DNA of 64,000 nt from a virus: positions 1 through 64,000 of the IMG/VR virus record IMGVR_UViG_3300033182_001391; one strand, given 5' to 3'. Under the pieces are notes generated by a model, which was given only the letters and a program-made list of their open reading frames with translations, made no database searches and was not told the origin of the DNA. The translations under genes were made by a program, and so were the position numbers. Shown here one piece after another: positions 1-39,394 of the stretch; the stretch's first letter is position 1, and each line of letters opens with the position of its first letter.

Positions 1-117
1 GGGCGCATCGACCCAGCGACCATGATCTGTCATAACGATAGCATGACCAGTTTTAGCAAGGTCGTCAATTCTTTTAGCGCCGTCTTTAGTGGGAACCATT
101 GTTTCGCCGCCTAAACA
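1..117 (-). other. N-terminal splicing region of an intein inside nrdJ (partial)
   Basis: From codon 109 the reductase reads CLGGETMVPTKDGAKRIDDL. This is the classic intein block A pattern: Cys1, a T-x-V segment, then D-G-x-x-x-I-x-x-L. It replaces the aromatic/hydrophobic residues (WFV type) that normally follow the NNC motif in class II reductases. The insertion site implies that the redox cysteine itself is the +1 residue of the C-extein, so splicing would rebuild the active enzyme. Only 39 intein residues are visible. Whether a homing endonuclease is present, or whether the intein is split, cannot be seen. Confidence 0.82.
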
Positions 118-441
118 GTTCACTAAAGACACACCGCTCATCTGACGGACAAGCGGGGTACCCAACTGCCACAGGGCACGGCCAGCAAAAATGCCCTTAA
201 GGTTGAAGATGTAATCGAATAAACGCTCTGCTTCTTCTTTAGTGTACTCTGCACCTATCTCTTGGGCACCGTTGATTGCTCTAGCAATAGTTTCAAACCA
301 ATACTCCTTACGACCCAAAGCCTCAATATCTCTTGAATATGTGCGTCGATACACTATTTCGCCCATACCATTAAAACCCCAAGGTGGAGTCTTGTCTACA
401 TATTGAGACACAAACTCTGGCGCGATTACATTTTCAGACAT
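1..441 (-). CDS. nrdJ: Adenosylcobalamin-dependent (class II) ribonucleoside-triphosphate reductase, N-terminal part, interrupted by an intein; runs off the window
   Basis: The visible 147 codons start at ATG 441 behind a strong ribosome site (AGGAG, 7 nt upstream). Residues 1-108 match the N-terminus of monomeric class II reductases such as Lactobacillus RTPR: a PPWGFNGMGE segment, YRRTYSR, and GRALWQLGT leading to the SLVNC motif. In the family this cysteine belongs to the redox pair that reduces the active site. Here the sequence turns into an intein right at that cysteine (residue 109). The enzyme makes deoxynucleotides from ribonucleotides using coenzyme B12 and needs no oxygen, so it would feed phage DNA synthesis. 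The start overlaps the stop of the upstream gene by 8 nt (ATGTCTGA), suggesting translational coupling. The rest of the intein and the catalytic barrel lie outside the window. Confidence 0.88.
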   Translation of the reverse strand, partial: MSENVIAPEFVSQYVDKTPPWGFNGMGEIVYRRTYSRDIEALGRKEYWFETIARAINGAQEIGAEYTKEEAERLFDYIFNLKGIFAGRALWQLGTPLVRQMSGVSLVNCLGGETMVPTKDGAKRIDDLAKTGHAIVMTDHGRWVDAP

Positions 442-1150
442 TTTTTACTCCTGATTTATTTATATTAATTATATACTTACTGTTAGTCTTAGATAACTCT
501 GCCTTTTTAATCTTTAAGATTTGGTCGACAGTATAAACCTTGTGTATTTCTTTCTCGAAGAAGTAGCCACTTCTCCAGTTGGGAACATTTGAAACATTCT
601 TCTTATAATTTACAAATACATTACATATAACAGCCCCACCATAAGCCCTAACCAAATTAGCTATCTTTTCCTTAATGTCACCAAGAGAATCAGGGTTAAC
701 AGTCTGATCTTCTTTTACCTTCTCATATAACCAGTTAAATGCTTGACGTGTCATTGGGAGCACGTCTATAGGGTCTATAACACCTTCTACAAGTATTATA
801 TTTCTACTTTGAGATATACGTAAATCTTCTTCAACAATGTCTACATACATCTCAAACCAATCATTTTTATTAAATTGCTCCCACCTAGTGCACCAAAACA
901 AAAGATTACTAGGTGGATCCGGTATAGGAACTTTTTCAACCAGAGGAAGTATAGTAGCACAAGCTATTGCTCTTTTCATCTGATCTTTTGCTACATTTTC
1001 GTTACTTTCCTTTTTTAAGAAAAGATTCCACAACGCAATAATATGATCATTCCACTCTATGTCTGCAACATAAAGTTTCAGATACTTATTTGCAATATCA
1101 ACCGGAAGCGTTTTATCTTTTACTACCGACTCAATACTAGACAACGACAC
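434..1150 (-). CDS. Unknown 238-residue protein upstream of nrdJ
   Basis: I do not recognise this protein. It begins with GTG at 1150 behind AAAGGAAAG and ends with a TGA inside the start of nrdJ. The sequence is soluble and mixed alpha/beta in appearance, with no signal peptide or membrane segment. It has a proline-rich stretch (PIPDPPSN) near residue 78, several tryptophans (LLFWCTRWEQF, WFEMY) and a lysine-rich C-terminus. It is the first gene after the lysis genes and is tightly coupled to the reductase. It may therefore belong to the nucleotide or DNA metabolism block rather than the virion, but this rests on position alone. Confidence 0.7.
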   Translation of the reverse strand: MSLSSIESVVKDKTLPVDIANKYLKLYVADIEWNDHIIALWNLFLKKESNENVAKDQMKRAIACATILPLVEKVPIPDPPSNLLFWCTRWEQFNKNDWFEMYVDIVEEDLRISQSRNIILVEGVIDPIDVLPMTRQAFNWLYEKVKEDQTVNPDSLGDIKEKIANLVRAYGGAVICNVFVNYKKNVSNVPNWRSGYFFEKEIHKVYTVDQILKIKKAELSKTNSKYIININKSGVKNV

Positions 1151-1213
1151 ATCTTTCCTTTATAATCTTCAATAAAAATATCAAAACCTATAAACTTGCT
1201 TATGAAAAGAATA

Positions 1214-1233
1214 ACCCCGCCTAATGGCGGGGT
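1214..1233 (-). terminator. Rho-independent terminator downstream of the holin
   Basis: An 8-bp GC-rich stem (ACCCCGCC pairing with GGCGGGGT) closes a 4-nt loop. On the minus strand it is followed by a T-rich run (TTATTCTTTTC). It lies in the 146-bp gap between the lysis genes and the unknown gene upstream of nrdJ. It probably ends the late structural transcript. Confidence 0.8.
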
Positions 1234-1250
1234 CATCCTATAGAATTTCA

Positions 1251-1270
1251 CCTGTGCATTATAGCACAGG
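1251..1270 (-). promoter_or_regulatory. Inverted repeat with an extended -10 (TGCTATAAT) in its loop; possible operator-promoter or second terminator stem
   Basis: A perfect 7-bp inverted repeat (CCTGTGC and GCACAGG) surrounds a 6-nt loop that reads TATAAT on the minus strand. With the flanking TG it forms TGCTATAAT at 1266-1258. A partial -35 (TTCACG, 1287-1282) lies 18 bp upstream. A terminator hairpin sits just downstream at 1214-1233, so a transcript started here would meet it immediately. The element could be an attenuated promoter for the nrdJ block, or simply the first of two tandem terminator hairpins. There is no U-tract directly after this stem. Confidence 0.4.
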
Positions 1271-1296
1271 AGTAGGTATTACGTGAAGCTTAGGCT

Positions 1297-1497
1297 TCAG
1301 CTCTTGAGGGTAGCAGCGCTCGATGGATCCCCAACGCGCGTAGCAACAAAACCCTTAAGCACGCTGATTGCAGCTGCAACACCAGCTGTGGCAGCAGCCT
1401 TGAGCTCATCAACACCGCCAACGGTGTAAATAGCCAAGAATGCCTGAGCTGCTGTCCAAGCTGCTCTTTCTACTACGTCTCTATAAAGTTTATTCAT
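1297..1497 (-). CDS. Holin
   Basis: This 66-residue protein has two hydrophobic alanine-rich helices (about residues 12-29 and 34-52) and a short polar C-terminus. The ERAAWTAAQAFLA segment, the alanine-rich second helix, the VLKG turn and the final RVGDPSSAATL tail are typical of small two-helix holins of actinobacteriophages. Holins oligomerise in the cytoplasmic membrane and time lysis by making holes. The start is ATG 1497 with AGAGG upstream. It is the last gene of the late block, directly after another small membrane protein and before a terminator. No free endolysin gene is visible in this window, so the endolysin must lie elsewhere. Confidence 0.78.
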   Translation of the reverse strand: MNKLYRDVVERAAWTAAQAFLAIYTVGGVDELKAAATAGVAAAISVLKGFVATRVGDPSSAATLKS

Positions 1498-1509
1498 AAT
1501 TTAACCTCT

Positions 1510-1821
1510 TTAACTAAAATGTTTACGTATTAGCTTCTCTATAAGAAGATGAAAAGTTAAGCCTAACCACGCTCCTATAAATACACTTCCTGTAATTGGT
1601 TTTTCGGTTAGTCTCCAGAAAGATCTTGTTAAGGTTTCAATCTTACTGGACTTTATGGCATATATGTCATACGCCATAATGCCTAGGACCAAACCCACCC
1701 ATCCATAAGCTCCGCTAGTTTTATCTTTAGAATCTAAAACCAGTGGTCCGGAGAATATGTCAGAGAGCTTTGGCCGAAGGAACCCCTTGGAACTCTTTAA
1801 CTCTGTTTTGACCATACTCAT
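1510..1821 (-). CDS. Small two-helix membrane protein next to the holin (possible second holin or antiholin)
   Basis: I take ATG 1821 as the start, giving 103 residues. Longer readings up to 1974 would lie almost entirely inside the preceding gene. The N-terminal 36 residues are polar and basic. Transmembrane segments lie at about residues 37-56 (GAYGWVGLVLGIMAYDIYAI) and 76-94 (around IGAWLGLTFHLL), followed by a basic tail (RKHFS). Position beside the holin and this topology suggest a role in lysis timing. The first 62 nt overlap the 3' end of the upstream gene in another frame, more than elsewhere in this block. The ribosome site is weak (CAGG, 8 nt upstream). Confidence 0.62.
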   Translation of the reverse strand: MSMVKTELKSSKGFLRPKLSDIFSGPLVLDSKDKTSGAYGWVGLVLGIMAYDIYAIKSSKIETLTRSFWRLTEKPITGSVFIGAWLGLTFHLLIEKLIRKHFS

Positions 1822-2398
1822 TATCGTAACCTGTAGGATATGCTTCACCATATCCGGCAGTGAAAACAACAGCACTTTGAACGCCACTGAAGGCAGCAGG
1901 GATAAAGTATCCAAATGAGCTTGGAGCACCCTGAGCTTCTGTTCTCTGAGCATGACCGGTATTGGCCATTGCATTTGCCGAGTCTACACCATCAAAGATA
2001 TAGTTATTGTAGCTATACTCACCAAAGTACTGATTAGCCTGACCAAAATCTCTTGGGAAAGCGACTGATCCAGCTAGACCCTTGTACTCATATGGCCTAA
2101 ATCTTGCACCCTCATATGTCGCACTTCCGTCAGGGAAAGAACCCGAAAGAGGATGAACATAGAAAACTGAACCCGTAAAAAGCTGTGACAAGAACAGGTT
2201 GCCAGGATGACGACCCGTACCAGGTACATGATGATTATCGGGAGCACCATCAAGTACATGATCAGTGCTGTATAATGGGTAGAAAGAATAGGTACCGGTA
2301 CCCTTGGCCTTACCAGTCATTGTGGTATATGGATTGACCATATTAGCGGTACTACGACCCTTTAAAACCGGTCTAGGACCTACGTAAAATGTAGCCAT
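1760..2398 (-). CDS. Glycine/tyrosine-rich structural protein of unknown function
   Basis: This 212-residue protein has ATG 2398 behind a strong AAGGAG. It is rich in Gly, Tyr, Phe, Pro and Asn and contains short aromatic-glycine repeats (YSFYPLYS, YFGEYSYNNY, GYGEAYPTGYDNEYG) and a histidine patch (DNHHVPGTGRHPGN). There is no membrane segment or coiled coil. I do not recognise the family. Its place after the fibre genes and before the lysis genes suggests a late virion component such as a fibre-tip or decoration protein. Base composition looks less AT-rich than the fibre genes upstream, in line with high expression, but this is only an impression. Confidence 0.7.
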   Translation of the reverse strand: MATFYVGPRPVLKGRSTANMVNPYTTMTGKAKGTGTYSFYPLYSTDHVLDGAPDNHHVPGTGRHPGNLFLSQLFTGSVFYVHPLSGSFPDGSATYEGARFRPYEYKGLAGSVAFPRDFGQANQYFGEYSYNNYIFDGVDSANAMANTGHAQRTEAQGAPSSFGYFIPAAFSGVQSAVVFTAGYGEAYPTGYDNEYGQNRVKEFQGVPSAKAL

Positions 2399-2460
2399 TT
2401 CTTATCTCCTTATAAAACGGTATGATATATATAGTAATTTAGAAACTGTTTTTTACCACT

Positions 2461-3714
2461 TTAGTTGTAATCAATTATCAAATCACTCAACACAGGAGCA
2501 GTCTTATCGTCCAGCATGTTTAGAGTCACCTCTATCCACACGCTGTTAGACGCACCAGGATTAGTTAAGGAATAAACTCCACCATTCTCATATATAACCC
2601 TATGAGAAAATGCTGTAGAAATTAAACTCCTTGGAACATTGTATATTTTAGGGTTAACGCTAACAATATTATTAATGACCGAACCATCTGCTGGAGTAAA
2701 TTTAATTATAGTTCTACCAGTGGGAAGATACTTATTGAAACCAACGTCCAGGTCGGCAAGGCCGTAGGTGTAAATTGCTTTACCCTGCTCAGTAAAATAA
2801 CTTCTCTGATTCATCTTAATTCTTAAACCGGTAATATCTGTATCTGGAAATATAAAAGCCAATGGACCAGAATTTGAAATCTTATCTGAACCAACTACAT
2901 CCCAACCACCGGGAGCAACCTTACCCACAGCATCTGCCTCACCATCATACAGCGCACTCCTATTTAACGGTAGCCAGCCATCAGATGCATCTAATGTTGG
3001 ATTAGCCTTTGTCGTATATTCAATACTGGCTATATCTACACCAAATGCTGGATATGGATTAAGTTTTATGATATTAGTCTTTAAGGATCCAGAAACCTCA
3101 GAAGGAACCTGTAAATAAAGCATCATTTGAGCGCCCGGAGCAGAGGGCGTATTCACTATAACAGTCCTTGTCCAAAACTTATCAACACTATCCAAAAGAG
3201 CATTATATATAGGAGTAGAGTCAACAATTGCGCCAGGAGTATCCACTCCAGCAAAGCTAGTATCAACCTTAGCCTTAAAAAAATCTGGGACAATTTGACC
3301 TGTTACAGAACCAGAAAATTTTAACTTAGAATATGAACTACTCTCAACCTTTGGTAGAGTGATAATATTATAAACAGGATCAAAGTGCAGAAGTTCAGTT
3401 CCAGAAACCGCAAAAGAAGATCCAGCTAAAGATGCATAATCTACTTGACTAAAAGAGTGTATAGATATTTTTTTCTCCGCTGCCTCTAGTGCACCAATTC
3501 TGTCTTCTAGATCTTGAACAGCAGAACTTAAAAATATATGATCCTTGAGAACCCTCTCAAAGGCATCTGCGAGCTTTGCATCTATCAATGATGCCTTATT
3601 GTACAGGTAGACAAGGTCCTTATAGTTTTCTTCTATCCTTGCATTATAATCAGAGCTATCGACCGGGCCATTATACTTATAATCTCTCTTCTTGGTATGT
3701 ATTATATCAGCCAT
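2461..3714 (-). CDS. Coiled-coil/discoidin-like baseplate fibre, paralogue 1
   Basis: This 417-residue protein starts at ATG 3714. Residues about 20-100 are helical and end in a coiled coil (LEDRIGALEAAEKK). A beta-rich part follows with the pattern HFD-x5-IITLPK near residue 117. A central domain resembles the F5/8-type carbohydrate-binding fold (a DKFWTR segment near residue 178, then strand-rich sequence). The C-terminus carries a TAPVLSDLIIDY motif. The helix, TLPK, discoidin-like and final strand order recurs in the next three large genes, pointing to tandem duplication. The probable role is a baseplate-attached fibre or receptor/wall-glycan contact. The start overlaps the previous gene's stop by 8 nt. 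Confidence 0.66.
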   Translation of the reverse strand: MADIIHTKKRDYKYNGPVDSSDYNARIEENYKDLVYLYNKASLIDAKLADAFERVLKDHIFLSSAVQDLEDRIGALEAAEKKISIHSFSQVDYASLAGSSFAVSGTELLHFDPVYNIITLPKVESSSYSKLKFSGSVTGQIVPDFFKAKVDTSFAGVDTPGAIVDSTPIYNALLDSVDKFWTRTVIVNTPSAPGAQMMLYLQVPSEVSGSLKTNIIKLNPYPAFGVDIASIEYTTKANPTLDASDGWLPLNRSALYDGEADAVGKVAPGGWDVVGSDKISNSGPLAFIFPDTDITGLRIKMNQRSYFTEQGKAIYTYGLADLDVGFNKYLPTGRTIIKFTPADGSVINNIVSVNPKIYNVPRSLISTAFSHRVIYENGGVYSLTNPGASNSVWIEVTLNMLDDKTAPVLSDLIIDYN

Positions 3715-4111
3715 AATTACTATCTTTCTCTAGCCTTTGAACTTTGTCGAAAATTCTAGACATTTTTGAACTAATTGTATTAATAGTTTTTATATCAACA
3801 TCTTGAGATGTAACACCAGTATCATCAAAGTAGAAATCAACACCATCTAAACTATACGATAAACCCTCACTTAATAGTACTGAAGTATCTATATCTTCAA
3901 CGTCGCCAACAAAATACGTTAGATCATCTAATATTTTAGAGTCAACCGTCTCTAATTGACTATATATTCTTTCTACATCTATTTTAAATAAATTTGTTTC
4001 AACATTTTCTAATTGACTAGACCTATGTGATCTATATTTTGTTCTAAATTTACCAAAAACAGGCTGAAGAATTCTTTCATACTTAGCTCTATTTTTATAC
4101 GTTCTAAACAT
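3707..4111 (-). CDS. Small coiled-coil baseplate protein, unknown function
   Basis: This 134-residue protein has a very basic N-terminus (residues 1-32, rich in R and K), helical middle segments (DVERIYSQLETVDSKILDDL) and a C-terminal helix (MSRIFDKVQRLEKD). It lies between two paralogous fibre genes. It lacks their discoidin-like part and could be a linker, chaperone or truncated relative. It ends 8 nt inside the start of the following gene. I cannot assign a family. Confidence 0.62.
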   Translation of the reverse strand: MFRTYKNRAKYERILQPVFGKFRTKYRSHRSSQLENVETNLFKIDVERIYSQLETVDSKILDDLTYFVGDVEDIDTSVLLSEGLSYSLDGVDFYFDDTGVTSQDVDIKTINTISSKMSRIFDKVQRLEKDSNYG

Positions 4112-4116
4112 ACTAT

Positions 4117-6249
4117 TTAACCATCCGAATGTCTAAATTTAACTTTAATAGAATTTATACTAGGTGTCTTAAGGGGGTTGGCATAGCGGATCAAATCCGC
4201 CCTATACCTAACCGAACTTACAACATCTGACATACTAGAATAGTATCTTATCAAAGATCTTTGATCTATTTTTGTAGAAGAAAGTATTTCTCTCCTGCCA
4301 AATAAAGAATCAACAGTAAATATCTTTAAAGATTCAGAAGATCTTTTTCTAAACTCAATAGGATCAGTGTAGCTATAATAATCCAAGAACACAGTTCCAT
4401 ACTCCTCTAGACTAACCCCAGCCATCAAACTGAAAGAAAAATAGCCAGTTGTGTTCTTATCATAAAGTATATTAATACTATTTACACCTTCAACAAAATT
4501 CCACTCTACTTCTGTAGTAGAAAACCCAGAAGGAACATCTGCTATTAGGACACCATTTAAATAAACCGATAAATTAAAGTCAGGAGAACTCTTTCTAAGC
4601 TTATGTGAAACACTAGTTGCGTTCTGACACAAAAGATTAGTCGAGAAAAAACCAGAGCTTTCAGATGTTAAAGGAGTGTTTGTGGATATTATTTGATCGT
4701 AAATAGTTTCCTTCAGAACAGAAAGATTGCCTTCTCTAGATATTTCCGAAGACCAATACTCAGGAGACTTATATAAAATGGCATCAACTAGATTGCCAGA
4801 ATGAATTTTACCATAATGCCTGAAGTTCTTTAAGCCAACTAGCATGTAGGGCTTTAAAATCTCTTCGTTCTCAGGAATGACAGTAATTCTGTAGGCAGTC
4901 TTCTCGGTAAAAGGTATTTTTGCCGGATTTAGACTACTTGAAAGGTCTGCAGAATCCGCTAAAGGTATAAATGTATAATCAGAATCAGTATTATCTATGA
5001 TTTTATTTTCGTAATTAGAGGAAGCCAAAGTAACAAATTTCTTATTGACCCCGGCAGAAGAACTTAGCGGCTCTATTGGAATCCAGCTAAAATCAGAAAT
5101 ACCAGTATAACTACCAACATCAGCTGCAACATAATACTTAATATCTGTTTCAGACGGAACATTACTAGATACATCTAGCGCAACAGAAGAAATTTCTAAA
5201 AGTGAATTATCTTTCTTACTTAAAGTTATAGGCTTAGAAACAAGAGTTGACCTAATATCATGATAGTCGGAACCTATTGATATTTCCCTAAATCCCATGC
5301 CATAAAAATAAGGATCAGAATCAGAAGCAATAATTCTATCTGGTTCATTTTTAACAAGAGTTATAGTTATAGAACTATATACATCAGCAGGTATATTGAA
5401 AGAAAATCTATTATATTCTTCTGAAGATTTCTTCTCAAAATATCTTCGCTGAAGTGTTCCATCCAAAGGAACACATGTCACATAAATGTTAACCGGCGAA
5501 GCAGTTATCAAAGAACCAGATACCCTAGATATCTCCAAAGAAGAAGACAAAGGTATATCAACAGAAAGAGCTACAATAGCAGGCTTAGAAGAACGATACT
5601 CCTTTTTCCAATAGGTGTCATTTAATCCATCAAATACAAAATCAAAGTTATCAGCAGTGCTGGCACTAACAATCTCTTGACCATCAACCCTCATAGAATA
5701 TGATACAGAATTAGAAGTTATTTGATCTACCGAAAGAACTTCAGATATATTAGAAGTTATCTTAGGTATTGTGACAGTATTATTTAAAAGATCTACATGA
5801 GAAGTAGTCAGAGAAAGATCTACACTGTCTGCTGTAGCAAACGACTCGCCAAAAGAGTAAAAATATCCATCTGAATTAGAGTTTTCAAATAAAAGCTCAT
5901 CAATCCTAGACTCTAACTGTTTCCTTCTAGCCTTAAGACCTTCCATCTTATTGTTCAACACATTTATAACGGCAAACATTTCGTTATTATTTTCAAAAAC
6001 ACAGTCATAGAGAACTTCTAAATTCAAAAGAGTATTTGCCATGAGCTCATTAAGAGCATCTGGATCAATAATATTTACCCTTTGAAGAATATTGTAGTCC
6101 ACATTTACAGGAGAACCAAAACCATAAGTAGAGAAATACCTATTAAAATCTTCTCTAACATCCTGCTCAGATGGCTTACTGCCCTCAGAATAATACAACT
6201 TATATAAATTGTTTAAAAACTTTCTTTTCTGAATTGTAGAAATATCCAT
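4117..6249 (-). CDS. Coiled-coil/discoidin-like baseplate fibre, paralogue 2
   Basis: This 710-residue protein has a helical N-terminus (1-130) with a coiled coil (NNKMEGLKARRKQLESRIDE). Then come a HVDLLNNTVTIPKI segment matching the TLPK motif of the 417-residue paralogue and an F5/8-type galactose-binding-like domain around 190-310 (FDFVFDGLNDTYWKKEY is a typical opening). A second beta region and a C-terminal KTPSINSIKVKF strand motif complete it. Tail proteins with such domains usually contact surface glycans. The gene's first base is the last base of the upstream stop codon (TAATG), so the two should be co-translated. No enzyme motif is visible. Confidence 0.68.
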   Translation of the reverse strand: MDISTIQKRKFLNNLYKLYYSEGSKPSEQDVREDFNRYFSTYGFGSPVNVDYNILQRVNIIDPDALNELMANTLLNLEVLYDCVFENNNEMFAVINVLNNKMEGLKARRKQLESRIDELLFENSNSDGYFYSFGESFATADSVDLSLTTSHVDLLNNTVTIPKITSNISEVLSVDQITSNSVSYSMRVDGQEIVSASTADNFDFVFDGLNDTYWKKEYRSSKPAIVALSVDIPLSSSLEISRVSGSLITASPVNIYVTCVPLDGTLQRRYFEKKSSEEYNRFSFNIPADVYSSITITLVKNEPDRIIASDSDPYFYGMGFREISIGSDYHDIRSTLVSKPITLSKKDNSLLEISSVALDVSSNVPSETDIKYYVAADVGSYTGISDFSWIPIEPLSSSAGVNKKFVTLASSNYENKIIDNTDSDYTFIPLADSADLSSSLNPAKIPFTEKTAYRITVIPENEEILKPYMLVGLKNFRHYGKIHSGNLVDAILYKSPEYWSSEISREGNLSVLKETIYDQIISTNTPLTSESSGFFSTNLLCQNATSVSHKLRKSSPDFNLSVYLNGVLIADVPSGFSTTEVEWNFVEGVNSINILYDKNTTGYFSFSLMAGVSLEEYGTVFLDYYSYTDPIEFRKRSSESLKIFTVDSLFGRREILSSTKIDQRSLIRYYSSMSDVVSSVRYRADLIRYANPLKTPSINSIKVKFRHSDG

Positions 6250-8447
6250 TATCTCTTCACCTTAGCTATCAACTGATAAGAATTAATACTTGGAGTAATA
6301 TTATCATTCCTATTCTTTGACACCTCCATTTTAACACGCACCTGCTTTACATTTTGCGGAACATCAGGATAGTTAAAATACGCAACTCCGGGCAGTTTAA
6401 ACGAATCAGCTATATTTTTATTGAAACAAATAACCTCTGGTATACCCTTATGATCTAATTGAACAGGAGATATTGATATCCAGTTACCATCCTCTACAGA
6501 TATATAGTAATTTGCATCTATCTTATTTAGATAATCATTTCCGATGTCAGTATCAACAGAAAGCATTATAGAATCAAGAGGGATATCAAAATCATAAACA
6601 GTAGAAACTATTTCTATATTGCTAGAGTAAGTTTCATAATTCACAGAAACATCCCTCAAACCTACAGCCATCCTTTTAGCTGGAAGAATCTCTTTCTCGA
6701 GCGCAATAGGCACATTATAGGTTTCTGACCTAGATGTTGAGCTATAATTATAATCAGATACAGCAATAGCGCTAGGATCTATTCTTACATCTGGCAATGT
6801 ATTGCCAGGACTGTACAAATAAGAACCATCTCCTTGATCAACTGCGTAATTTTGAATCACCAGTTCAAATACCGACTTTGCCGTGTTGGCATCCTCTTGG
6901 CTTGCAAAACGAGAAGTTTGAGCAAAAACATTATCGTAGATAAATTCATTTGAATATAAGAACCCCGGAGGAGTACCACCCAAAGTTATCCCAGAAGACT
7001 CAGTAAATCCAGCAAAGTAGTAAGTGCTATTGGTGTCTAGATCGGTAAAAGTTATGACCTTAAATGCCTCAGAACCAGATACATTCGTTAATGTTACAGG
7101 AACATTTCTAAACTCACTACTGCCAACTTTATACTCAAGAGTATCAGACAATGTAGGAAGAAGAGAACGAACATCATACTCGACAGAAGCGTAGCCCTGT
7201 AGCTGATCTGGAGCAAATCTATCTAATCCAACAAAAGGACTATTTGATGTATCGGAATCAGAATAATTAGGCCTCCAATAGGCATGTTGTATTTCAACCT
7301 GCTGGAACTCTTCTTGCTCAAAAACTATTTCAATCTTAGCAACTAGTCTTTCGCTAAACTTTATTGAAGCCTTATTGTAAAAATAATTCTTGTTTGCCGA
7401 AGAATTAAGAGGAGCCATTGAAGACCCAATATAAATACTCTCATCTAAAATTTCCTCAGAAGAACCATCCGCAGAAAACACCTTTATTGATGAAACTTTT
7501 AATATTCTCATAGAAGAAAAATATGGAACTATATCTACTGAGTTTGCTTTTTCTGACTTAGTCTTTTCAAGAACCAAAGTCATAGTTAAAGGTTCATTTA
7601 TATTATGGTCAGACCAATTAACTAATGACCCCTCGGCAATAGAAGGATCAAACTCTCCATCTGCTACGAAACAAAACTCTTTTTCAGAAGGAAGATTGCC
7701 TACCGAATATAAATTTTCCTTATCAACATTTAAAGCTTCATATTCAAAAAATGTTAAAGGACTAGAGTCTGACGCAGAGCGTATGTAATTAATTGAAGGC
7801 GTGTCCTCAAAAATATACTTGTAATAGTCGGCTCCCTCTGAGTTAATAGATTTTATTACCTGATGGTTATTTCCCAAAAACCCATTTCCAGAACTAATAG
7901 ATACAGAACCGGGCGTCCAACTCTTTAAAGTGGAAACAGGAAAGTTGGCACTGCCAGAACTAATTATAGGAATAAAACCTTTTTTGATTTTAGTCACGTC
8001 AACTTTGTCTAAATTATCAAAAGAATCTCCAACATAAATTATATCTTCAGCTTCACTCATGCTGTACATTTGAAGTATTTTAGACTTAGAAGATATTCTT
8101 TCTACATATTTTTTTTCATTTTCTAATTCTTCAAAAAACAAGTTAAAAGAACTTACAACTCTTGCGCTTAAGTAGTCAATCTGCGGCATTATGGCATTAA
8201 TATCTTGAGCTAGATCTTGAGAGAAAGTATTAATCTTCTCAGAATAAGGTGGCTCACCCTTTATGACTGGAACATACTTAGTCATTGGTGCTGAGATGTT
8301 TTCGTATATCTCAGACAATATTTTATTATATTCCTGAATACGTTCTTGATTAGACTTAAATTCATTTCTAGCCTCTTTGACATAGAAAGATCTAAGCTTC
8401 ATAAATATTTGATGATAACTTAACGTATTAGAAGATAACTGTGCCAT
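6249..8447 (-). CDS. Coiled-coil/discoidin-like baseplate fibre, paralogue 3
   Basis: This 732-residue protein begins with long amphipathic helices (about 1-145, ending in FFEELENEKKYVERISSKSK), followed by beta-rich domains. Around residues 260-400 it shows a discoidin-like layout (FVADGEFDPS, TMTLVLEKT, then AKIEIVFEQEEFQQVEI). The C-terminus has ITPSINSYQLIAKV, the same terminal motif as the 710-residue neighbour. It is serine- and acid-rich with no signal peptide, as expected for a virion protein. It is probably a second subunit of a heteromeric baseplate fibre. A four-gene expansion with similar order but diverged sequence suggests several distinct fibres or rings rather than redundancy. 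Confidence 0.68.
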   Translation of the reverse strand: MAQLSSNTLSYHQIFMKLRSFYVKEARNEFKSNQERIQEYNKILSEIYENISAPMTKYVPVIKGEPPYSEKINTFSQDLAQDINAIMPQIDYLSARVVSSFNLFFEELENEKKYVERISSKSKILQMYSMSEAEDIIYVGDSFDNLDKVDVTKIKKGFIPIISSGSANFPVSTLKSWTPGSVSISSGNGFLGNNHQVIKSINSEGADYYKYIFEDTPSINYIRSASDSSPLTFFEYEALNVDKENLYSVGNLPSEKEFCFVADGEFDPSIAEGSLVNWSDHNINEPLTMTLVLEKTKSEKANSVDIVPYFSSMRILKVSSIKVFSADGSSEEILDESIYIGSSMAPLNSSANKNYFYNKASIKFSERLVAKIEIVFEQEEFQQVEIQHAYWRPNYSDSDTSNSPFVGLDRFAPDQLQGYASVEYDVRSLLPTLSDTLEYKVGSSEFRNVPVTLTNVSGSEAFKVITFTDLDTNSTYYFAGFTESSGITLGGTPPGFLYSNEFIYDNVFAQTSRFASQEDANTAKSVFELVIQNYAVDQGDGSYLYSPGNTLPDVRIDPSAIAVSDYNYSSTSRSETYNVPIALEKEILPAKRMAVGLRDVSVNYETYSSNIEIVSTVYDFDIPLDSIMLSVDTDIGNDYLNKIDANYYISVEDGNWISISPVQLDHKGIPEVICFNKNIADSFKLPGVAYFNYPDVPQNVKQVRVKMEVSKNRNDNITPSINSYQLIAKVKR

Positions 8448-14000: not shown

Positions 14001-16566
14001 CAGACCTAAAACTGAAACAGTTGGGTGAAGTATCTTCTCCAGGAAGGGGCTCAGACATTATCTCTTCAGGCTGATTTAAAGTAGCAGTAAATGTTGCTGA
14101 GCATGAGAAGTTTACCTTGACATTGAATCTTGATGCCTTCTCTTCAGGAACAGCAACATAAGAATAAGAAGAAGAAAGCTTAAAGGGATAAGACTTAAAC
14201 GAATTTAAAACGCCAATATTATTTGAAAGAACTGCATTACCAGACGCACTTACCGGCTTAGTCAGAATAGTATAAGGGCCCATAGAAGAAAGGACACGTA
14301 GAATAGGGGATCCCTTAGTAGTATACGCATAAAGTTTTTCATCGTTATCATTCATCTTCCAAACAGTATAAGAAGACGGTATATCTTCTTCTTCTATTGC
14401 TAAGTCATTACTAATCAAAGTCGAATTATAAACTTCAACATCTGGATTAGTAGTCTCTATATACATCTCTATGGTGTCAACATTAGTAGCTATTTTATCT
14501 CTCTGATAATCTGGGAGAATTTTACTTAATTCATTTTTATAGAAATCAAGAATAGTAGGATAATCTTTAATCAAATCTCTAGCGTAAAACTGACTAGAAG
14601 AATTACTAGAAACATTTACATACAATTCCTCTCTTTCATCATCTAAAAGAGCATCATTGTTCATCACCCAAGAAGAATTCCAATCCGAAACAAAATTGTA
14701 TACAGCGGATCGGGTATCTATAATTCTACTTGAATGTGCCTTACAGTATGTCGCATACGCAGAAATGTTAAACAAAAGCTTTAGGGGACCCTCAACTACA
14801 CCAGAGTAAAAATTTCTATCCTCGGTATCAAGTGAACTGTTACCATAGTTACTGTTCAAGGGCTCTTGATTTTGAGAAGTTGAATAAATAGAGTTACAGT
14901 ACTGCAAGAAAGGGAAAGTAGTTGCAATTATATTTCCTCTGGAAATCCTATCCGAAGAAGTTATAAATGGAAGCAATGTGCCTATAGATGACGCAGCTGA
15001 AGTCTCATCAAATCCTGAAAGTATAAAAGAATTCTCAGAAGAAGAAAAAGACCTGTATCTACGATACACGGGATCTCCAGTTCTAGCAGTATTAGAAGAA
15101 CCAAATATCCCATAATACGGTTGATCAAAAGCCGTGTCATTAAGATTCCATCCACCACTTTTAGCTGAAGATAAAATTGGAGAAGTTTCACTCATGATAA
15201 TGTGATTACCAGGAATCGTATCTCTTTCAACCTGCAAGAAAGAATCCAACTCTGTTGCGTCTGCATCACCCAAGCTTAAATCTAAAACAACAGTTCCATT
15301 ATTCCTTAGAAATGTAGTTAATTTATTAGCATGAACTTCACTTATTTTAAAATTTGGAGACCAAACAAGAATATCATAATCCCTTAAATCATCTACAGTA
15401 TCTATGTCAACTTTCCAATAATCAGCCAGCAAAGTATCATCTAAGTCTGAATTTGGATTTACATATCTATACTTAAATAGATTAAAAGGAGATTTCTCAA
15501 GCCTCTGAAAAGCGTAAGGATTGATTACACTATTGGTTTTCTGATTAGAAGAACTATAAAGAACTCCAGCATTGACAGTTCTTAGGGCCAGCAGATCTCC
15601 GTCTAATTCGTCGCCAAAATCAATTTCATCAAGATTAATTGAAAGCCTAGACTTAGCTATAAGTCTCCAGTTAAAAATCTCATATGTTCTATAATCAGAA
15701 AAACCTTTTGAAGGAGAAAAAATCTGATAACCACCAGCTATATTGGAACTATCAACTAAAGTACTATATTTGTCATTAACTTTCTTTAAAGAAAAAATAT
15801 TTTTGTTATAACTATTTTTATCTACTACAGTACTTTCTTCTGGAACCTCGCTCATGTAAGGAACTGCATTAACCGTCTCAGCATAAGCCAGCTCTTGGCT
15901 AAATATATTTCCATACTCGTCAGAGTCTACCTTATCATAAACAAGCTTTAAATTAATTGGTGGATCTGCATTAAAAAATACAACTACTCTACAAGGTATT
16001 TCGTTTCTTGAATAATTATTTGAAGTTTTAAATGGCTCTAAAAGAATTCTATACTTTCTTTTTCCAGAAATAGTGTCTAAATACTCAAAGCCTTCAGAGT
16101 CAATAACTTTAATTGAGAGATCTGACAACTTGTCTGGATCAAGAAAATCTCTATCCGAGGAAGGACTAAAGAATGGAGGAGCTGAGATGAAATATCTACT
16201 AACATACTTATAGTGAATAAAATCATTTACATCGACACTATCGACATAAACACGCTGAGTGGTAAATGCTTCTGTTAGAGGAACATTTGAAATTGTCAAA
16301 TCATTGGAATAGAAATTATAATTTCCATCAAGCCTATGTAGAACACCTAGCTCATCAGCGTAGGCTAAAACTTTTTCTCCAGATATACCATTACCAACCC
16401 TATTTTCCTGTATTGAAGTAGATATATCTATGAAGCTAAGAGAATTTCCTGCAGTTATCTCTTCCGAGTTAAACCAAGCCAAGCCTACGGAATTATCGGG
16501 AACATTATTTCCTATCTTAACCGCTTTTTCTTTCCCATCAGAAGTTAAGTTAACAAACTTTTCCAT
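11068..16566 (-). CDS. Large baseplate/tail-fibre protein with a peptidoglycan-binding domain
   Basis: This 1832-residue protein is a chain of beta domains with recognisable inserts. Residues about 365-470 (LRDYDILVWSP, ANKLTTFLRNNGTVVLD) look like a GATase1/ThuA-like Rossmann domain. Residues about 885-960 are a peptidoglycan_binding_1 domain: IQYTLWTYK, then DGFYGPQTANGIRQFQQQEG and DGIVDSETKWLM, with the usual G-x-x-T-x-x-A-[IV]-x-x-F-Q core. A discoidin-like domain follows at about 1010-1130. The C-terminus has PPSLLDIRIKGGG, resembling the terminal motif of the downstream fibres. The wall-binding domain suggests this protein anchors the baseplate to the cell wall. The start shares one base with the upstream stop (TAATG). 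Confidence 0.7.
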   Translation of the reverse strand: MEKFVNLTSDGKEKAVKIGNNVPDNSVGLAWFNSEEITAGNSLSFIDISTSIQENRVGNGISGEKVLAYADELGVLHRLDGNYNFYSNDLTISNVPLTEAFTTQRVYVDSVDVNDFIHYKYVSRYFISAPPFFSPSSDRDFLDPDKLSDLSIKVIDSEGFEYLDTISGKRKYRILLEPFKTSNNYSRNEIPCRVVVFFNADPPINLKLVYDKVDSDEYGNIFSQELAYAETVNAVPYMSEVPEESTVVDKNSYNKNIFSLKKVNDKYSTLVDSSNIAGGYQIFSPSKGFSDYRTYEIFNWRLIAKSRLSINLDEIDFGDELDGDLLALRTVNAGVLYSSSNQKTNSVINPYAFQRLEKSPFNLFKYRYVNPNSDLDDTLLADYWKVDIDTVDDLRDYDILVWSPNFKISEVHANKLTTFLRNNGTVVLDLSLGDADATELDSFLQVERDTIPGNHIIMSETSPILSSAKSGGWNLNDTAFDQPYYGIFGSSNTARTGDPVYRRYRSFSSSENSFILSGFDETSAASSIGTLLPFITSSDRISRGNIIATTFPFLQYCNSIYSTSQNQEPLNSNYGNSSLDTEDRNFYSGVVEGPLKLLFNISAYATYCKAHSSRIIDTRSAVYNFVSDWNSSWVMNNDALLDDEREELYVNVSSNSSSQFYARDLIKDYPTILDFYKNELSKILPDYQRDKIATNVDTIEMYIETTNPDVEVYNSTLISNDLAIEEEDIPSSYTVWKMNDNDEKLYAYTTKGSPILRVLSSMGPYTILTKPVSASGNAVLSNNIGVLNSFKSYPFKLSSSYSYVAVPEEKASRFNVKVNFSCSATFTATLNQPEEIMSEPLPGEDTSPNCFSFRSALDDLGQGREANTSSPSNIFPYTGDIDLGNKTAIWTNGNSGDYATYIQYTLWTYKNITGRNFYPYPLDGFYGPQTANGIRQFQQQEGARYIDGIVDSETKWLMARFWKNAKENHRPSYDQSVNAAPSQVNDRVRNFILAAASTVTADKINIKDNYRKITFTGTTGPSEGVDYIYFSIPTHLETVNRIVIEGVDGWTNFKVAEYGLSSSGGNDRGSYRVTNTTLNISGSKIAIDINGPGSQNRFGYIKLVGGSLGSKYGRAEGFGIKRIKAEGITNGVPSQGTGEFEDNESPVSVDLIFDVRNIPVNGIVEIGAEQRVRVGTNELIKRFDNSDYSLNITGLSYGGRTYGLDFDVYDILNGREIFVQINNRDTIKLKLNESTFSHSRSRPSAVKNGVFTVSKVTTPTNQLIWSSDSIGVSPVGVTNIANGTTYVTGVLGTSEIYFADADVVSVSRDLSSGYSLRSFKDEGLIYKDGRKDVTVNDGVMLLCNSAGRPFGLPSASDIAAAAVDNIDDQGDLRFGSFIVSNETSEEGLVYGFYDINEKEFLGKNIQYIDFVRRGVGNIFIGVCAIDADGNTQNDNEFIGPVVDTTFRPVQVPVKYIAPVYSISINTPSSIGIGNFSKDISRFETWELPVKSGSFKKKVLFNRSYNLGSWEDNYLNQELLAEYSTVDLSTGSWSKIYGYGNYDVYDESPIIMDERKIRVRRAPILSWNHPTNYFSSVFGIVKPEFSISIRDSIFDNWVEIPYSDVRDVNCETGVIELKEAKIPSDRKLIKISYTTKNKSSMVRHINGSSIPINPVLNYEDIFFDTPMYVYILPKDLYKRSYGSSVLETNAGVYEQVTDYSPSSIINYTWDYTLFDSSSKDYNPLAIPMAIVYVLSRPRNTPPSLLDIRIKGGGVSQDRTNYELLNDIPEVLSNWDVYSAQGEAYSKGGYVIIRIPEEVRDNFIDDQEIYSVISNNLTAGIAYDLQDMNGNTWS

Positions 16567-19500
16567 TAGCTATCCTCATAGTCTGGATGTAAATTATTGT
16601 AATCAGTTATCTGATTAGGAGTCGAACCCAAAATTCCTAGCTGATATTGATCATATCTCCTAATTGGTATCCAATCACTAGGAATCCAATTAGGAGTTGA
16701 ATCAGAATAATAAACTAAATCAGGGTTGCTATGATCATAAACAAATGATGGTGTTGACAGCATTTGGCTTTCACTATCTAAATCAACCGTAAAGACCGAA
16801 GACATCGGAAGCAATTCGTTGGTGTAATGCAAATTGTCATAAAGCTCATGCCAGTAAACAACATCTCCCGATATAGTAACATCAGAAGCTGTTAAAACCT
16901 CACCATTAGACTGCAGCAAACTTACCACAGCTGCGGGATCCTTAAGCTCAACTCTAACAAATCTTAAACCAGGATTCAGATTATTATTTACAGTTATTAA
17001 GTCATTCAGGTAGAATGTACCATCTGGATTAGTTGTAATTACTGAAGGTGTCGTATCGGTAAACAAATCTCTGTAAGAAGAATTCTCATACCAATACAAC
17101 TCTATTTCCTCCTCAAGAGGTCTATCATCCCAATAAACTCTACCAGCCACAGTTACATCAGATTCTCCGTCAGCATCAAGGGAAAATCTTACCGGAATAG
17201 CTTTTATCTTTAACCTAAAATTATTACCCCTAAGAATATTATAATCTACAGTTTCAAGATATCCTTCAGAACTACTATTGGGTCCACCGTTCGGAGTTGC
17301 AGAACCTATACCCTCTATCGTTATTGTATCCTGTGCCACCGTAGCTGGAATTGCACCAGAGTACCTAATTACACTATAGCCGAATCCATTATCGTTAGTA
17401 GTTACAAACTGAGGTGTTGCATCTATATTTGAACCATAAATTTTGAAAGTTTGACCTGGCTTTAAATTGTTATTTTCATCATAAGAGACTAAAGAAAGAT
17501 TCATATAATCTTGAACGTCATCCTCTATGTAGGCCGGCGATAATATTGGCTCCACATAGCTAAAGTTAAAGCTATCGTTAGAAACGTAAACAAATCCTTC
17601 GTGAAGAGGATTGTCAATTTGATCTATCTCTAAATCAATAGATCTAAGAGAATCTTTTTTACTGGTTTCATAAGTAATTTCATATGAAGAAGATAAAGAA
17701 GGTGTGGATGAGAAGTAGATTATTGAATTGTACTGATCAGATGAATCATCATATACATCGGGATCAACAAAGAAAGAATCTTCAACTTTGTAAGAAACTA
17801 AATACTCTCTACCTTTTACTGCAGGTGTACTAGAATCAAATGGTGTTATAGTTGAATCCTGACTACTCAGGCCACTAAACAAAACAGTATTATTGTAAGC
17901 ATCCGTTACTGTGACGTCTGAGATATTTTGATATGCCAAGTAGAGAGAGTTACCCTCATTGCCATAAACTGACTCTAGGTTATAGAAGCTATGCTTTCCA
18001 GGAGTAGCCGAATCTTCAAAAGCAACATTTCTATATTCTACACCGTCAACATTTGCTATAACAGGAGCACTAAGAATAGGTGTCTCATCTAATGTTAATG
18101 AGAAGAATTTGCCTGTTTCATTTTGTGTATTAGAAACAGAATATATATACCTATCTTCTTCGCCGTAATATATCCAACCTGGATTTAAGGCTAGCTTATA
18201 TGGCTCCTCTTTGAATGCCATAAACGAAGATGTTGCCTGCTCGCTGTTCTCTATTGCATAATTTAAATCGGAAACAACTTGCGCAGGATTATCTATAGCA
18301 ACTCTTACATCTACATTGTTACCATATATTTTAATATTTTCTATAATATGCTCAAGACTATCATTTATACCAAAATCATTTGCACCTAACAAATATTTAT
18401 CTATTAGATTATCCTTATTAAAGAATACGTTAGTTAACTCTTCTCCGTCCCTGTAGGCATTCCCGTAACTATCCATAAATCCACTAAAGAATGGATTGTT
18501 AGTTGTAGCAGAGAAGAAGTCGTAGTAAAGATATCTTAAAGGATAAAAATCACCGCTAGCAGACTCTAAAGATAGATAGTCAACACTTCCATCATAATCT
18601 ATCGTTGCCGATTCAAAATAATCCTGGCCAACAACAACTGAGTCTGAAGAATCATACTGCGTAAACACAATGTTTGGAGAAGAAGGAATAAAATATATGT
18701 CTTCATCATTTGGATCTTTTGCAACACCGCCATAAGTATAGATATCTAATTCATTATTATTTTTTGTGTAAACAGTATTCTCACTAACATTAAAATAAAT
18801 ATCTTGCGGAGTAGCAGAGGATGGATAAACAATATAATCCTTAAGACTTTGAACCTCTAACACTGAAGGTGTAGCTGAAGTAGAAGAAAAAGTATTTCCA
18901 GAATTAATAATTAAAGAATCTGAAAGAGTATCAGTATAGCGAATGGTTGGCGTTGAGTCATATCTATCAGAAACTAAAAGAAGATTAACATTATAGCCAT
19001 CTATATTAGGACTGGCTATAGAAATAGCGGATCCATCACCATCTCTATAATTTGGTGTTGACTCATCAAAAGAAATCTTGTAATCATTTACCCCTACTGA
19101 ATCATAAACTTGAGCAATAGCATTCCACGCTTTAGCGGGAACAACCCTAATTTCGTCGGCATCAGTTATCGCTATTCTTGTAGAATTAGGTGTAGATAAA
19201 GTATTTGAATATTGCTGATTATAAATCTTGTCTCTAAATACTATTGTATCCTCAGTTACACTATCTGCTCCAAAAATTTTATAAGATATATACTCTGGGC
19301 TAGCTGAACTATTTTCAGGATAAAGATTTTCTAAAAGTAAAGATGGATCATCTTCATACGTAAAGTTAGCGTAGAAGGTAGATGGAGTTGCATAATTGTC
19401 GTGAGATTGAAGATCAATCTCGTAAACGAATGCTGCACCTATTCCATCGGTAGGCAATATGGAATCGTAGATATCTACAGAGCCACCATTAGGAGAAGCA

Positions 19501-22415
19501 TATTCGTCATCGCCCGGACTACCAACCACAAAAGTACTTGCATAATCTGAAAATGAAAAACTATTACCAAAACTAGTTGTAGTTTCACTAGATACAGGAC
19601 TCAGTCTACCAACCTCTGTAATTGTTTTATCTTTATCGTAAGAATAAACATAGACATCACCATCATCTAAAGCAGTTCCTACAGCCAAGGTTCTCTTATC
19701 ATTAGATATGGACACATAACTTCCAAAACCGTCATTTAATGAAGAATCTTGCGGAGAATACTTTAATTTTTCTATCCACTCAAACGTAGATCCATCATTA
19801 GAACTATTAACAAAAACAGATATATAACCCGTTCCTGGAGTAGCTACATCATTTTCATTTGCGCCAACCAAAAGATAAGAACCATCATAAGAACAATCAA
19901 CTGATATGCCAAAGTAATTCTTATCACTTATAGAATCAACAACAATCTCCTGCTGATTCAACCACTCAACTGCGGTATCAGGATACTTAACTGAATTAAC
20001 GTCATACACATATACAATTCCAGTATCTGAGCCAGACTGATAATCAAAATTTGGAGCTCCAACAAAAACCTTAGAAACATCATCGGCAAGAGCTATACTC
20101 CAACCAACATCATCACCAGCAGAAGTACCAGATGGCACAGTTGCACCATCGTAGACCCAAGAAGAACTTAAATAATAGAAGCTATGGAAAGCTCCACCAA
20201 TAATTGATGCATCTTCCCATGCAGGAGATCCAACAACAACAACATCACCATCATAAGAAATATCTAAACTAAATCCGAATAAAGAATCTTCTTGAGAAAC
20301 AGCTGGAACAAGATAGTCTTCGTAAGACCAGGATCCACCGCTATATCTATAAATAAATACCGCACCGGAATTTACAGCGCCGCCGCCAAAAATTGCAGCT
20401 GAACTATTATACGGGGAACCGACCGCTATCGTTAAGCCATCACCAGAAATAGCTATAGAGTAGCCGTAAAGGTCATCTTCTGCGGCTCCAGCACCACCAT
20501 TAACACCGGTCTGATCTAGCTTAGCGACCTGCGTCCATGTAGAACCAGATCTATTGAAGACATAAACTGCCCCCACACCTTCAGTGTCAATATTAAGAGG
20601 AAAACCAGTAAGCTCTATATTAGCCTTATAAGAAGATACAACTAAAGTATTTCCATCTCTAGATAAAACGGTTTTGTATCCAAATTGATCTAGAGCATCT
20701 ATATCATCGCTCGTTAGATCAATTTGACTTGAAGCAAAAGTTTGAACAACATCTTTCTGGGCATCCAAGTCGGCAACATTTATAAGATAAGACATATACC
20801 AGGAGTAGTTGACAACAATCGGCATGTAGGCATCGCTGTAATCAACTTCTTTCAATCCAGTTACTTCAACATATCCATTAAAAGAAACAGTTGCAGCCGA
20901 GTCGTCTTCAATATCTATGTAAAGCTTTGCATCGTCGAAATCTCCAACCCCAGGCTGATAATCGGAACCAAGAGGAGAAGCATCTTCATCGTAAACAGAT
21001 GGAACTCTAGAAATACCTTCTCCTAATAAGCCACCGTAATCCCAGTTGCCCTCCTCCCATTTAACATATCCGTAATTTGCTGGATACCTTTCATTCAATG
21101 ATGTTACAAAATCTTTAAAAGCTTTTTGTGGTTTACCTGAATTAGAAAAATAAGGACTTGAACTTTCTATGTCAGAAATTTCTAAGATTTCCGGCGTAGC
21201 TCCAAGATAATTGGAATCAGGAGTAGATCCATATGCTCTCCAAATATCTAACTCTCTTCTGAGAATAAGCTTAAGACCTTCCAAATTAGATGCTCCAGGA
21301 TTCGCAGCTGCATCTAATATTCTCTTCTTAAAAGAGGAATTGGATTCAAGATATAATCTAGGGAGACTTACCCTTGCACCAAACTCATCGAAATCATTAA
21401 ATATATTTATAGCTTCTTGTTCAAAAGAAATACCATTAACAGTAAGGGTATCAAAACTTCTTATTGAATACAGCCTCTTATTTAGGGGATCATAATAGTA
21501 CGCATAATCTTCTTTTCTAAGAGAAACAAAATCGTTGAAACTAGATACAACAGCAAGAGATACACCATCACCCTTAACGCTACTTATATTAGGTGGAACA
21601 TTATAACTTACATATATCCATGCCAACATATCTTCGTCGGCACTATTAATAAATGCGTTGACTTGCTCTGTATCAACATTCCTTTGAAAATATTCAAAAT
21701 TATCTTGCACTAAAGCTGTTAAAAACTTACCGCCCTCAGACTCTGGTACATCTAAAGCTGGTGTTGCTGAGTCTTTAGAGTCAGAAAAAAGAGCTGTCCA
21801 ACTAGGAAATCTCTTTAAAACATTCTTAACTCTTCTAGTGCTAACCGGAGATACTGGATCATGAATTCCAACCTCAAGATAAAAAACTAAACCAACAGAA
21901 CTCAAATCGGCTTCATCGGAATTAATAACTAATTCAATTTGCACATATGGCTTAACATCGGTAATAAATAAAGTTCCTATTTCACCGGAAGCAACGTTCT
22001 TCAACCATGGACCATCTGCTGAATCAGACTCATAAATATTTATTTGAAAGTTAGGAGCAGTAATACCCTGAAGGTTTGTAAAAGTATATTTATAAGAAAG
22101 TATATCTATCTCCGAAGAAGTATCAACAAACCTTAATATACTAGGTGTAGCAGAATCGTAAACAACTTCACCAAAATCAGTTACATACACAGCATTACTA
22201 TCTATAGGCGTTGCGTGATTCCCAGCTGTATTAGGGGAAGCTATCTCTGTACCGGAAAAAACTCTTGTACCAATAAGATCTAAACCAGTAGAAAACCTGC
22301 TGTAAGAAAAGTTTTTATACTGATCATTAGAATACAGATTTATAGAAGAAGAACGCCAAACATCATTACTCTTAATGAAGTCGCCACTTCTTAAAGTATA
22401 TAAATACTGCTTCAT
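16566..22415 (-). CDS. Giant baseplate wedge/receptor-binding protein with a seven-bladed FG-GAP propeller
   Basis: This 1949-residue protein follows the J-like wedge gene, the place of tail protein I/gp7-type genes. Residues about 195-400 resemble tail protein I-type wedge proteins (LPRLYLESNSSFKKRILDAA, then NLEGLKLILRREL). Residues about 575-990 contain seven FG-GAP repeats, each with an FGxSxxxSxDG-like start and a [AV]VGSP-like strand. This is the integrin-alpha beta-propeller pattern. Further beta and Ig-like domains fill the C-terminal half, including a carboxypeptidase-regulatory-like one around 1720-1800. The propeller is a good candidate for receptor recognition. A short (S/D)-(A)-TP-(S/N/A/G) motif recurs more than 20 times. 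It ends one base inside the next gene's start. Confidence 0.72.
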   Translation of the reverse strand: MKQYLYTLRSGDFIKSNDVWRSSSINLYSNDQYKNFSYSRFSTGLDLIGTRVFSGTEIASPNTAGNHATPIDSNAVYVTDFGEVVYDSATPSILRFVDTSSEIDILSYKYTFTNLQGITAPNFQINIYESDSADGPWLKNVASGEIGTLFITDVKPYVQIELVINSDEADLSSVGLVFYLEVGIHDPVSPVSTRRVKNVLKRFPSWTALFSDSKDSATPALDVPESEGGKFLTALVQDNFEYFQRNVDTEQVNAFINSADEDMLAWIYVSYNVPPNISSVKGDGVSLAVVSSFNDFVSLRKEDYAYYYDPLNKRLYSIRSFDTLTVNGISFEQEAINIFNDFDEFGARVSLPRLYLESNSSFKKRILDAAANPGASNLEGLKLILRRELDIWRAYGSTPDSNYLGATPEILEISDIESSSPYFSNSGKPQKAFKDFVTSLNERYPANYGYVKWEEGNWDYGGLLGEGISRVPSVYDEDASPLGSDYQPGVGDFDDAKLYIDIEDDSAATVSFNGYVEVTGLKEVDYSDAYMPIVVNYSWYMSYLINVADLDAQKDVVQTFASSQIDLTSDDIDALDQFGYKTVLSRDGNTLVVSSYKANIELTGFPLNIDTEGVGAVYVFNRSGSTWTQVAKLDQTGVNGGAGAAEDDLYGYSIAISGDGLTIAVGSPYNSSAAIFGGGAVNSGAVFIYRYSGGSWSYEDYLVPAVSQEDSLFGFSLDISYDGDVVVVGSPAWEDASIIGGAFHSFYYLSSSWVYDGATVPSGTSAGDDVGWSIALADDVSKVFVGAPNFDYQSGSDTGIVYVYDVNSVKYPDTAVEWLNQQEIVVDSISDKNYFGISVDCSYDGSYLLVGANENDVATPGTGYISVFVNSSNDGSTFEWIEKLKYSPQDSSLNDGFGSYVSISNDKRTLAVGTALDDGDVYVYSYDKDKTITEVGRLSPVSSETTTSFGNSFSFSDYASTFVVGSPGDDEYASPNGGSVDIYDSILPTDGIGAAFVYEIDLQSHDNYATPSTFYANFTYEDDPSLLLENLYPENSSASPEYISYKIFGADSVTEDTIVFRDKIYNQQYSNTLSTPNSTRIAITDADEIRVVPAKAWNAIAQVYDSVGVNDYKISFDESTPNYRDGDGSAISIASPNIDGYNVNLLLVSDRYDSTPTIRYTDTLSDSLIINSGNTFSSTSATPSVLEVQSLKDYIVYPSSATPQDIYFNVSENTVYTKNNNELDIYTYGGVAKDPNDEDIYFIPSSPNIVFTQYDSSDSVVVGQDYFESATIDYDGSVDYLSLESASGDFYPLRYLYYDFFSATTNNPFFSGFMDSYGNAYRDGEELTNVFFNKDNLIDKYLLGANDFGINDSLEHIIENIKIYGNNVDVRVAIDNPAQVVSDLNYAIENSEQATSSFMAFKEEPYKLALNPGWIYYGEEDRYIYSVSNTQNETGKFFSLTLDETPILSAPVIANVDGVEYRNVAFEDSATPGKHSFYNLESVYGNEGNSLYLAYQNISDVTVTDAYNNTVLFSGLSSQDSTITPFDSSTPAVKGREYLVSYKVEDSFFVDPDVYDDSSDQYNSIIYFSSTPSLSSSYEITYETSKKDSLRSIDLEIDQIDNPLHEGFVYVSNDSFNFSYVEPILSPAYIEDDVQDYMNLSLVSYDENNNLKPGQTFKIYGSNIDATPQFVTTNDNGFGYSVIRYSGAIPATVAQDTITIEGIGSATPNGGPNSSSEGYLETVDYNILRGNNFRLKIKAIPVRFSLDADGESDVTVAGRVYWDDRPLEEEIELYWYENSSYRDLFTDTTPSVITTNPDGTFYLNDLITVNNNLNPGLRFVRVELKDPAAVVSLLQSNGEVLTASDVTISGDVVYWHELYDNLHYTNELLPMSSVFTVDLDSESQMLSTPSFVYDHSNPDLVYYSDSTPNWIPSDWIPIRRYDQYQLGILGSTPNQITDYNNLHPDYEDS

Positions 22416-38955: not shown

Positions 38956-38959
38956 TACA

Positions 38960-39394
38960 TCACCTAAACATCATGTTATTGCTAACTATATTATTCATTC
39001 TAAAACTAGAAGTATCTTTAGTATGCGCAGAACTATAATTGTCCATTATACTATAATTTGAGGAAGATTGAAACTTATCAAAAACAAAATTTGCGTTATT
39101 GTGAGAAACAATTTCCTTATTATACCTAGCCGTCTGCAAAGCCTTATTATCATAACCAGTATTATCTGGATTAATTAAAGTACCAGAACTATGCTGCAAT
39201 CCCTCAAAAGAACCTTTGACAGGATCAGACTTAACTTCTCTAGCATCATTTCTGGAAGAACTTAACTTAGAACGACCTTGAGCTTGAGATCTAGAAATTT
39301 TAGCTGAAAAATTATCTGAATTCTCTTTCCTATGAGATGTATCCTTAGGGGTACGTGCAGCTTGGGAAAGTCTTTTATTCTGATCAGCGATCAT
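38960..39394 (-). CDS. Small disordered protein between tape-measure region and hub
   Basis: This 144-residue protein is dominated by Ser, Asn, Lys, Arg, Asp and Gln, with almost no hydrophobic core and many charged tripeptides (SHRKENSDN, SRSQAQGRSK). It looks intrinsically disordered. A slightly more hydrophobic C-terminus (NNIVSNNMMF) could be a binding motif. It lies 4 nt before the hub start and 11 nt after the stop of the 1607-residue protein. That suggests a linker or assembly factor joining tape measure and hub. I do not recognise a family. Confidence 0.62.
   Translation of the reverse strand: MIADQNKRLSQAARTPKDTSHRKENSDNFSAKISRSQAQGRSKLSSSRNDAREVKSDPVKGSFEGLQHSSGTLINPDNTGYDNKALQTARYNKEIVSHNNANFVFDKFQSSSNYSIMDNYSSAHTKDTSSFRMNNIVSNNMMFR

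Follow-up and report, generated by a model that had tools for sequence, protein, structure and literature searches.

The N-terminal part of an intein at the redox cysteine codon of a phage class II ribonucleotide reductase gene

The viral DNA analysed here (the window) covers bases 1-64000 of a virus record 71,140 bp long. It opens with the 5' portion of an nrdJ gene from a phage, and this gene very probably harbours a mobile intein of class 1, placed immediately ahead of the codon for the redox cysteine Cys119 of the encoded ribonucleotide reductase (RNR). Comparison with homologous sequences confirmed that the gene is interrupted exactly at this codon by an intein, of which the window encodes the first 39 residues. 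The N-terminal junction, the host gene and the insertion site can be read directly in this copy; intein-free alleles occur among its relatives, and a complete related intein occupies the same codon in another lineage.

The nrdJ open reading frame (ORF) runs on the minus strand from window position 441 to position 1, with an ATG start and 147 codons, and is open up to window base 1. Since this is also the first base of the record, nothing precedes the window, and the ORF is truncated by the contig end without a stop codon. The gene upstream of it shares 78% identity (tblastn) with genes adjoining the RNR genes of L042, L045 and L046, and the DNA of L046 is 82% identical over window positions 185-4854. 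The order of the two genes is kept in intein-free relatives, which argues that the contig is not chimeric around them. The opposite end of the record (L082) codes for structural proteins, among them one resembling a tail fibre and one resembling a portal, and neither an RNR fragment nor an intein fragment was found there. The coordinates of the features are collected in Table 1.

Table 1. Features at the nrdJ end of the window
Feature	Position	Strand	Evidence
N-extein, residues 1-108 of a monomeric class II RNR (MSENVIAP...SGVSLVN)	118..441	-	RNR_Alpha, 1L1L alignment, 80 viral relatives
Intein residues 1-39 (block A, CLGGETMV... to GRWVDAP), cut by the contig end	1..117	-	Profile, L174 identity, drop in DNA identity
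Codon TGT, intein Cys1 at the RTPR redox Cys119 position	115..117	-	1L1L alignment, junctions of relatives
Upstream gene, function not assigned, 8-base overlap with the RNR start	434..1150	-	tblastn, synteny

Homology searches confirmed the host gene as a phage nrdJ encoding a monomeric adenosylcobalamin-dependent class II RNR of the RTPR type. Residues 8-95 of the ORF matched the Pfam family RNR_Alpha (E=2.5e-23), and residues 6-122 aligned with RTPR of L. leichmannii (PDB 1L1L, E=5.6e-10), placing SLVNC on SLNNC and C109 of the window on C119 of RTPR. The TIGR02505 model of RTPR gave E=1.5e-8 on the ORF fragment, below its full-length cut-off. In RTPR, Cys119 and Cys419 form the redox pair and Cys408 is the radical site. 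The initial annotation had named both a class II RNR and its redox cysteine; the former is upheld by the Pfam and 1L1L matches together with the 80 viral relatives, the latter by the position of the junction cysteine on RTPR Cys119. The closest intein-free relative, L002, shares 95% identity with the window ORF across residues 1-109; it aligns end to end with RTPR and has a cysteine at all the catalytic positions (119, 408, 419, 731 and 736), among which only position 119 falls inside the window.

The insertion point was defined against 80 IMG/VR relatives with 75-96% protein identity over residues 1-109, all of which continue as ...SLVN/CWMTT... (the slash marks the junction) with no insert at codon 109. 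DNA identity to these intein-free relatives is 0.68-0.90 up to codon 108 and 0.20-0.25, the chance level, from codon 110. The 39-residue tail of the window ORF, CLGGETMVPTKDGAKRIDDLAKTGHAIVMTDHGRWVDAP, is encoded by window positions 117-1 and contains block A, with Cys1 and the pattern CxxG[DE]TxV. Searching these 39 residues against library models with hmmscan returned no match, as the fragment is too short for such models, and a site-specific profile was used in their place. Built from 13 inteins of the same RNR site with the nearest intein left out, the profile matched the tail at E=1e-9, whereas none of 3000 shuffles, and none of the other window ORFs, scored better than E about 0.9. Relative to its homologues, the tail is thus an in-frame insertion at an exact codon with the block A features of a class 1 intein. 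The proposal that an intein starts at SLVN/C is therefore borne out by the exact homology break, by the profile and by a complete relative at the same codon. Two further matches were set aside: one to L063, extended to residues 5-135, is a chance extension, L063 being devoid of an intein, and the short peptide VMTDDGRWV, common to the intein and L236:1385-1410 (minus strand), lies there in an unrelated ORF and is probably due to chance. Searches with patterns for the N-terminal junction and for an intein end before CWMTT did not turn up this intein in any sister contig from the RNR lineage of the window. The suggestion of the initial annotation that insertion at an invariant residue would hinder loss of the intein is a general argument; at the Cys119 codon, alleles free of an intein greatly outnumber those that have one.

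Scanning with degenerate codons for N-C-h-x-G-[DE]-T-x-V detected the window's type of intein at the identical codon of L174, L180, L165 and L137, which represent one lineage in several IMG/VR samples. This lineage shares with the window the type of host gene, the N/C site and 26 of the 39 visible intein residues (67%), whereas its extein is only 55% identical (57/103) and its intein is complete, with LAGLIDADG motifs and a penultimate Gly. In L174 the intein is contiguous (6066-6980, 305 aa) and includes the block B TxxH motif (T65, H68), both LAGLIDADG/DOD Asp motifs (GLVYGDG and GYFAADG) and a C-terminal junction, LLTGN/CWFVD, with the redox cysteine at +1. Its AlphaFold model (mean pLDDT 88, pTM 0.84) adopts a Hint fold and matches in the PDB the intein endonucleases PI-SceI, TliVMA and PI-PfuI, as well as the Hint domains of mini-inteins. 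The best TMq (0.74) was obtained with PI-PfuI (1dq3), the RNR intein of P. furiosus; the two have in common the Hint and LAGLIDADG fold, but PI-PfuI is archaeal, 454 aa long and 11% identical.

Further inteins at the Cys119 site were found in L121, L140, L186, L181, L117, L122, L153 and L100, in the bacterial genomes L198 and L213, and in the cultured Thermobifida phage P318. Block B TxxH (T65, H68) is present in all aligned relatives, and LAGLIDADG motifs are absent from the mini-inteins of L140 and L186. The nrdJ gene of P318 (MK240575.1, orf7), annotated solely as a ribonucleoside-triphosphate reductase, resembles the window in carrying an intein at the same RNR cysteine, in this case with LAGLIDADG, and differs in that its intein is about 29% identical to that of L174 and ends TGQ/C. 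In every Cys119-site relative with a visible intein end, the +1 residue is the redox cysteine, preceded mostly by TGN, also by THN, and in one case by TGQ. The initial annotation had assigned the +1 role to the catalytic cysteine, which holds for all these relatives and is predicted from them for the C-terminal junction of this copy; its expectation of an HN/C ending was not a fair test, because relatives at the same site mostly end TGN/C. Glycine in place of the penultimate His is a known variation in phage inteins (PMC5050341). As a separate observation, a single nrdJ ORF in L140 (4313-7672) contains three mini-inteins of 148, 138 and 140 aa, located before Cys119, before the Ser of RRSAEI and before Cys408. 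Similarly, nrdJ of L181 (8692 bp) contains inteins before Cys119 and before the equivalent of Cys419; the second of these ends TYQ/CLVE and, in the tree, clusters with the Cys462 inteins of phage NrdA (support 97/94), though on a single long branch.

By analogy with these relatives, the intein would extend beyond the 39 visible residues and be spliced. The RNR and the intein would be translated as one precursor chain; Cys1 of the intein would attack the SLVN-Cys bond, the host Cys119, as the +1 residue, would take over the N-extein, and the terminal Asn of the intein would cyclise. SLVN would thereby be joined to CWMTT..., restoring the Cys119/Cys419 redox pair of a reductase expected to be inactive before splicing is complete. 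A precedent for an effect on the enzyme is the R2 protein of A. aeolicus, whose RNR active-site residues are separated by an intein (PMC8772380). By analogy with L174 in particular, this intein probably contains an in-frame LAGLIDADG homing endonuclease and probably spread by homing into intein-free nrdJ alleles. Since the +1 nucleophile would be the redox cysteine of the enzyme itself, oxidation of Cys1/Cys+1 or of Cys119/Cys419 could conceivably gate both splicing and reductase activation, an idea to which we give little credence; if true, an oxidised pair would hold back the precursor from maturing into reductase until conditions in the infected cell become reducing.

Among the alternatives, the visible residues might be the N-half of a split intein, with the remaining enzyme encoded by another gene and spliced to it in trans. 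Phage RNRs are known to contain split inteins, and Thermus phage TSP4 is a likely case, its nrdJ consisting of two ORFs divided inside an intein at NP/C408; in the present record, the C-terminal part of nrdJ is not adjacent. However, the gene ends by the contig edge rather than at a stop codon, the nearest relatives are contiguous, and no C-terminal nrdJ piece, C-extein or intein block B, F or G was found anywhere in the 71-kb record, making this arrangement quite unlikely. Even less probable is that the nrdJ gene is dead and its intein degenerate and unable to splice. Decay of phage RNR inteins is on record (PMC3653736), and with 39 intein residues visible a frameshift or stop may lie past the contig end; against this, the 147 visible codons are free of both, neither Cys1 nor the block A residues have been lost, and extein identity to the best intact relatives is 94-96%. 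An assembly artefact, in which a chimeric contig end fused the RNR 5' part with the intein of another genome, is hardly credible: the insert does begin 117 bases from the contig end, a zone where assembly errors concentrate, and no sister contig shares the junction, but the flank is syntenic with relatives and the junction is in frame at the exact codon that holds the closest known intein in another lineage, which a random join would not produce.

Besides Cys119, other catalytic cysteines of phage RNRs carry inteins. The RNR of L024, 93% identical to that of the window, has no intein at Cys119 and a 351-aa LAGLIDADG intein at NP/CGEI (Cys408, from position 5998 onwards); it is the only one of the 80 relatives with an intein at Cys408. 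Together with the RNRs of Nodularia phages, such as the "intein-containing RnR" of kac65v151, it resembles the window as a phage class II RNR with an intein directly before a catalytic cysteine, and differs in the site (NP/C, the radical cysteine C408 of RTPR) and in belonging to a separate intein branch. The two nrdJ ORFs of TSP4 (L093:3992-6781) probably encode a split intein: the first ends ...HEFVLVDGSKR, and the second comprises a LAGLIDADG-like stretch and the intein end HSGN/CAEI. NrdJ-1 is a split intein that follows the NPC motif and has Ser as its +1 residue. Like the present intein it sits in a phage-like nrdJ gene, from which point the two diverge, NrdJ-1 being split and inserted elsewhere than at the Cys119 site. 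In class III, full-length inteins are found at the position of T4 NrdD Cys79 in Morganella phage MP1, where the position is exact, Klebsiella phage FBKp34, Vibrio phage V6Aob and two faecal phages (L226, L229, L230, L227 and L228). No intein is mentioned in the GenBank product names of NrdD in MP1, FBKp34 and V6Aob, and the records of the two faecal phages are unannotated. In class I, phage NrdA genes carry an intein at SNL/C, which presumably corresponds to E. coli Cys462.

The origin of the Cys119 inteins was explored with two trees, one of 25 RNR inteins and one in which 17 non-RNR inteins were added. In the first, the class II Cys119 inteins grouped with the class III NrdD Cys79 inteins (support 100/99). 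In the second, RtcB, primase and RecD inteins with an N/C junction fell inside this group, and the clade was rejected (AU p=7e-73). The notion of one intein lineage tracking the homologous cysteine across RNR classes was consequently dropped, the clade being a sampling effect of the RNR-only tree. As the Cys119 inteins fall in at least three groups of the second tree, with L174 near primase and RtcB inteins, we conclude that a broad family of N/C inteins has, by this phylogeny, invaded the RNR Cys119 site at least three times.

Phage nrdJ inteins were already on record (PMC3653736), and so were inteins at catalytic sites in general (PMC2814812, PMC5874633); the principle that inteins occupy active centres of phage replication proteins is already published. 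A description of an intein at exactly the RNR Cys119 site was not found in the literature searched, which excluded most subscription papers. The present case adds a sequence-defined example in which the catalytic cysteine of an enzyme would act as splicing nucleophile, a +1 role predicted here from the relatives, and it presents RNR Cys119 as a site repeatedly invaded by related N/C inteins in phages. Moreover, the approximately 80 intein-free alleles, one of them at 95% protein identity, provide ready empty-site controls for homing and splicing.

Elsewhere in the window, a Baseplate_J domain (22442-23611) and FG-GAP repeats (16566-22415) point to a contractile-tailed phage. A 3671-codon ORF lacking a Pfam match (27952-38967, minus strand) stands among a block of very large minus-strand ORFs.
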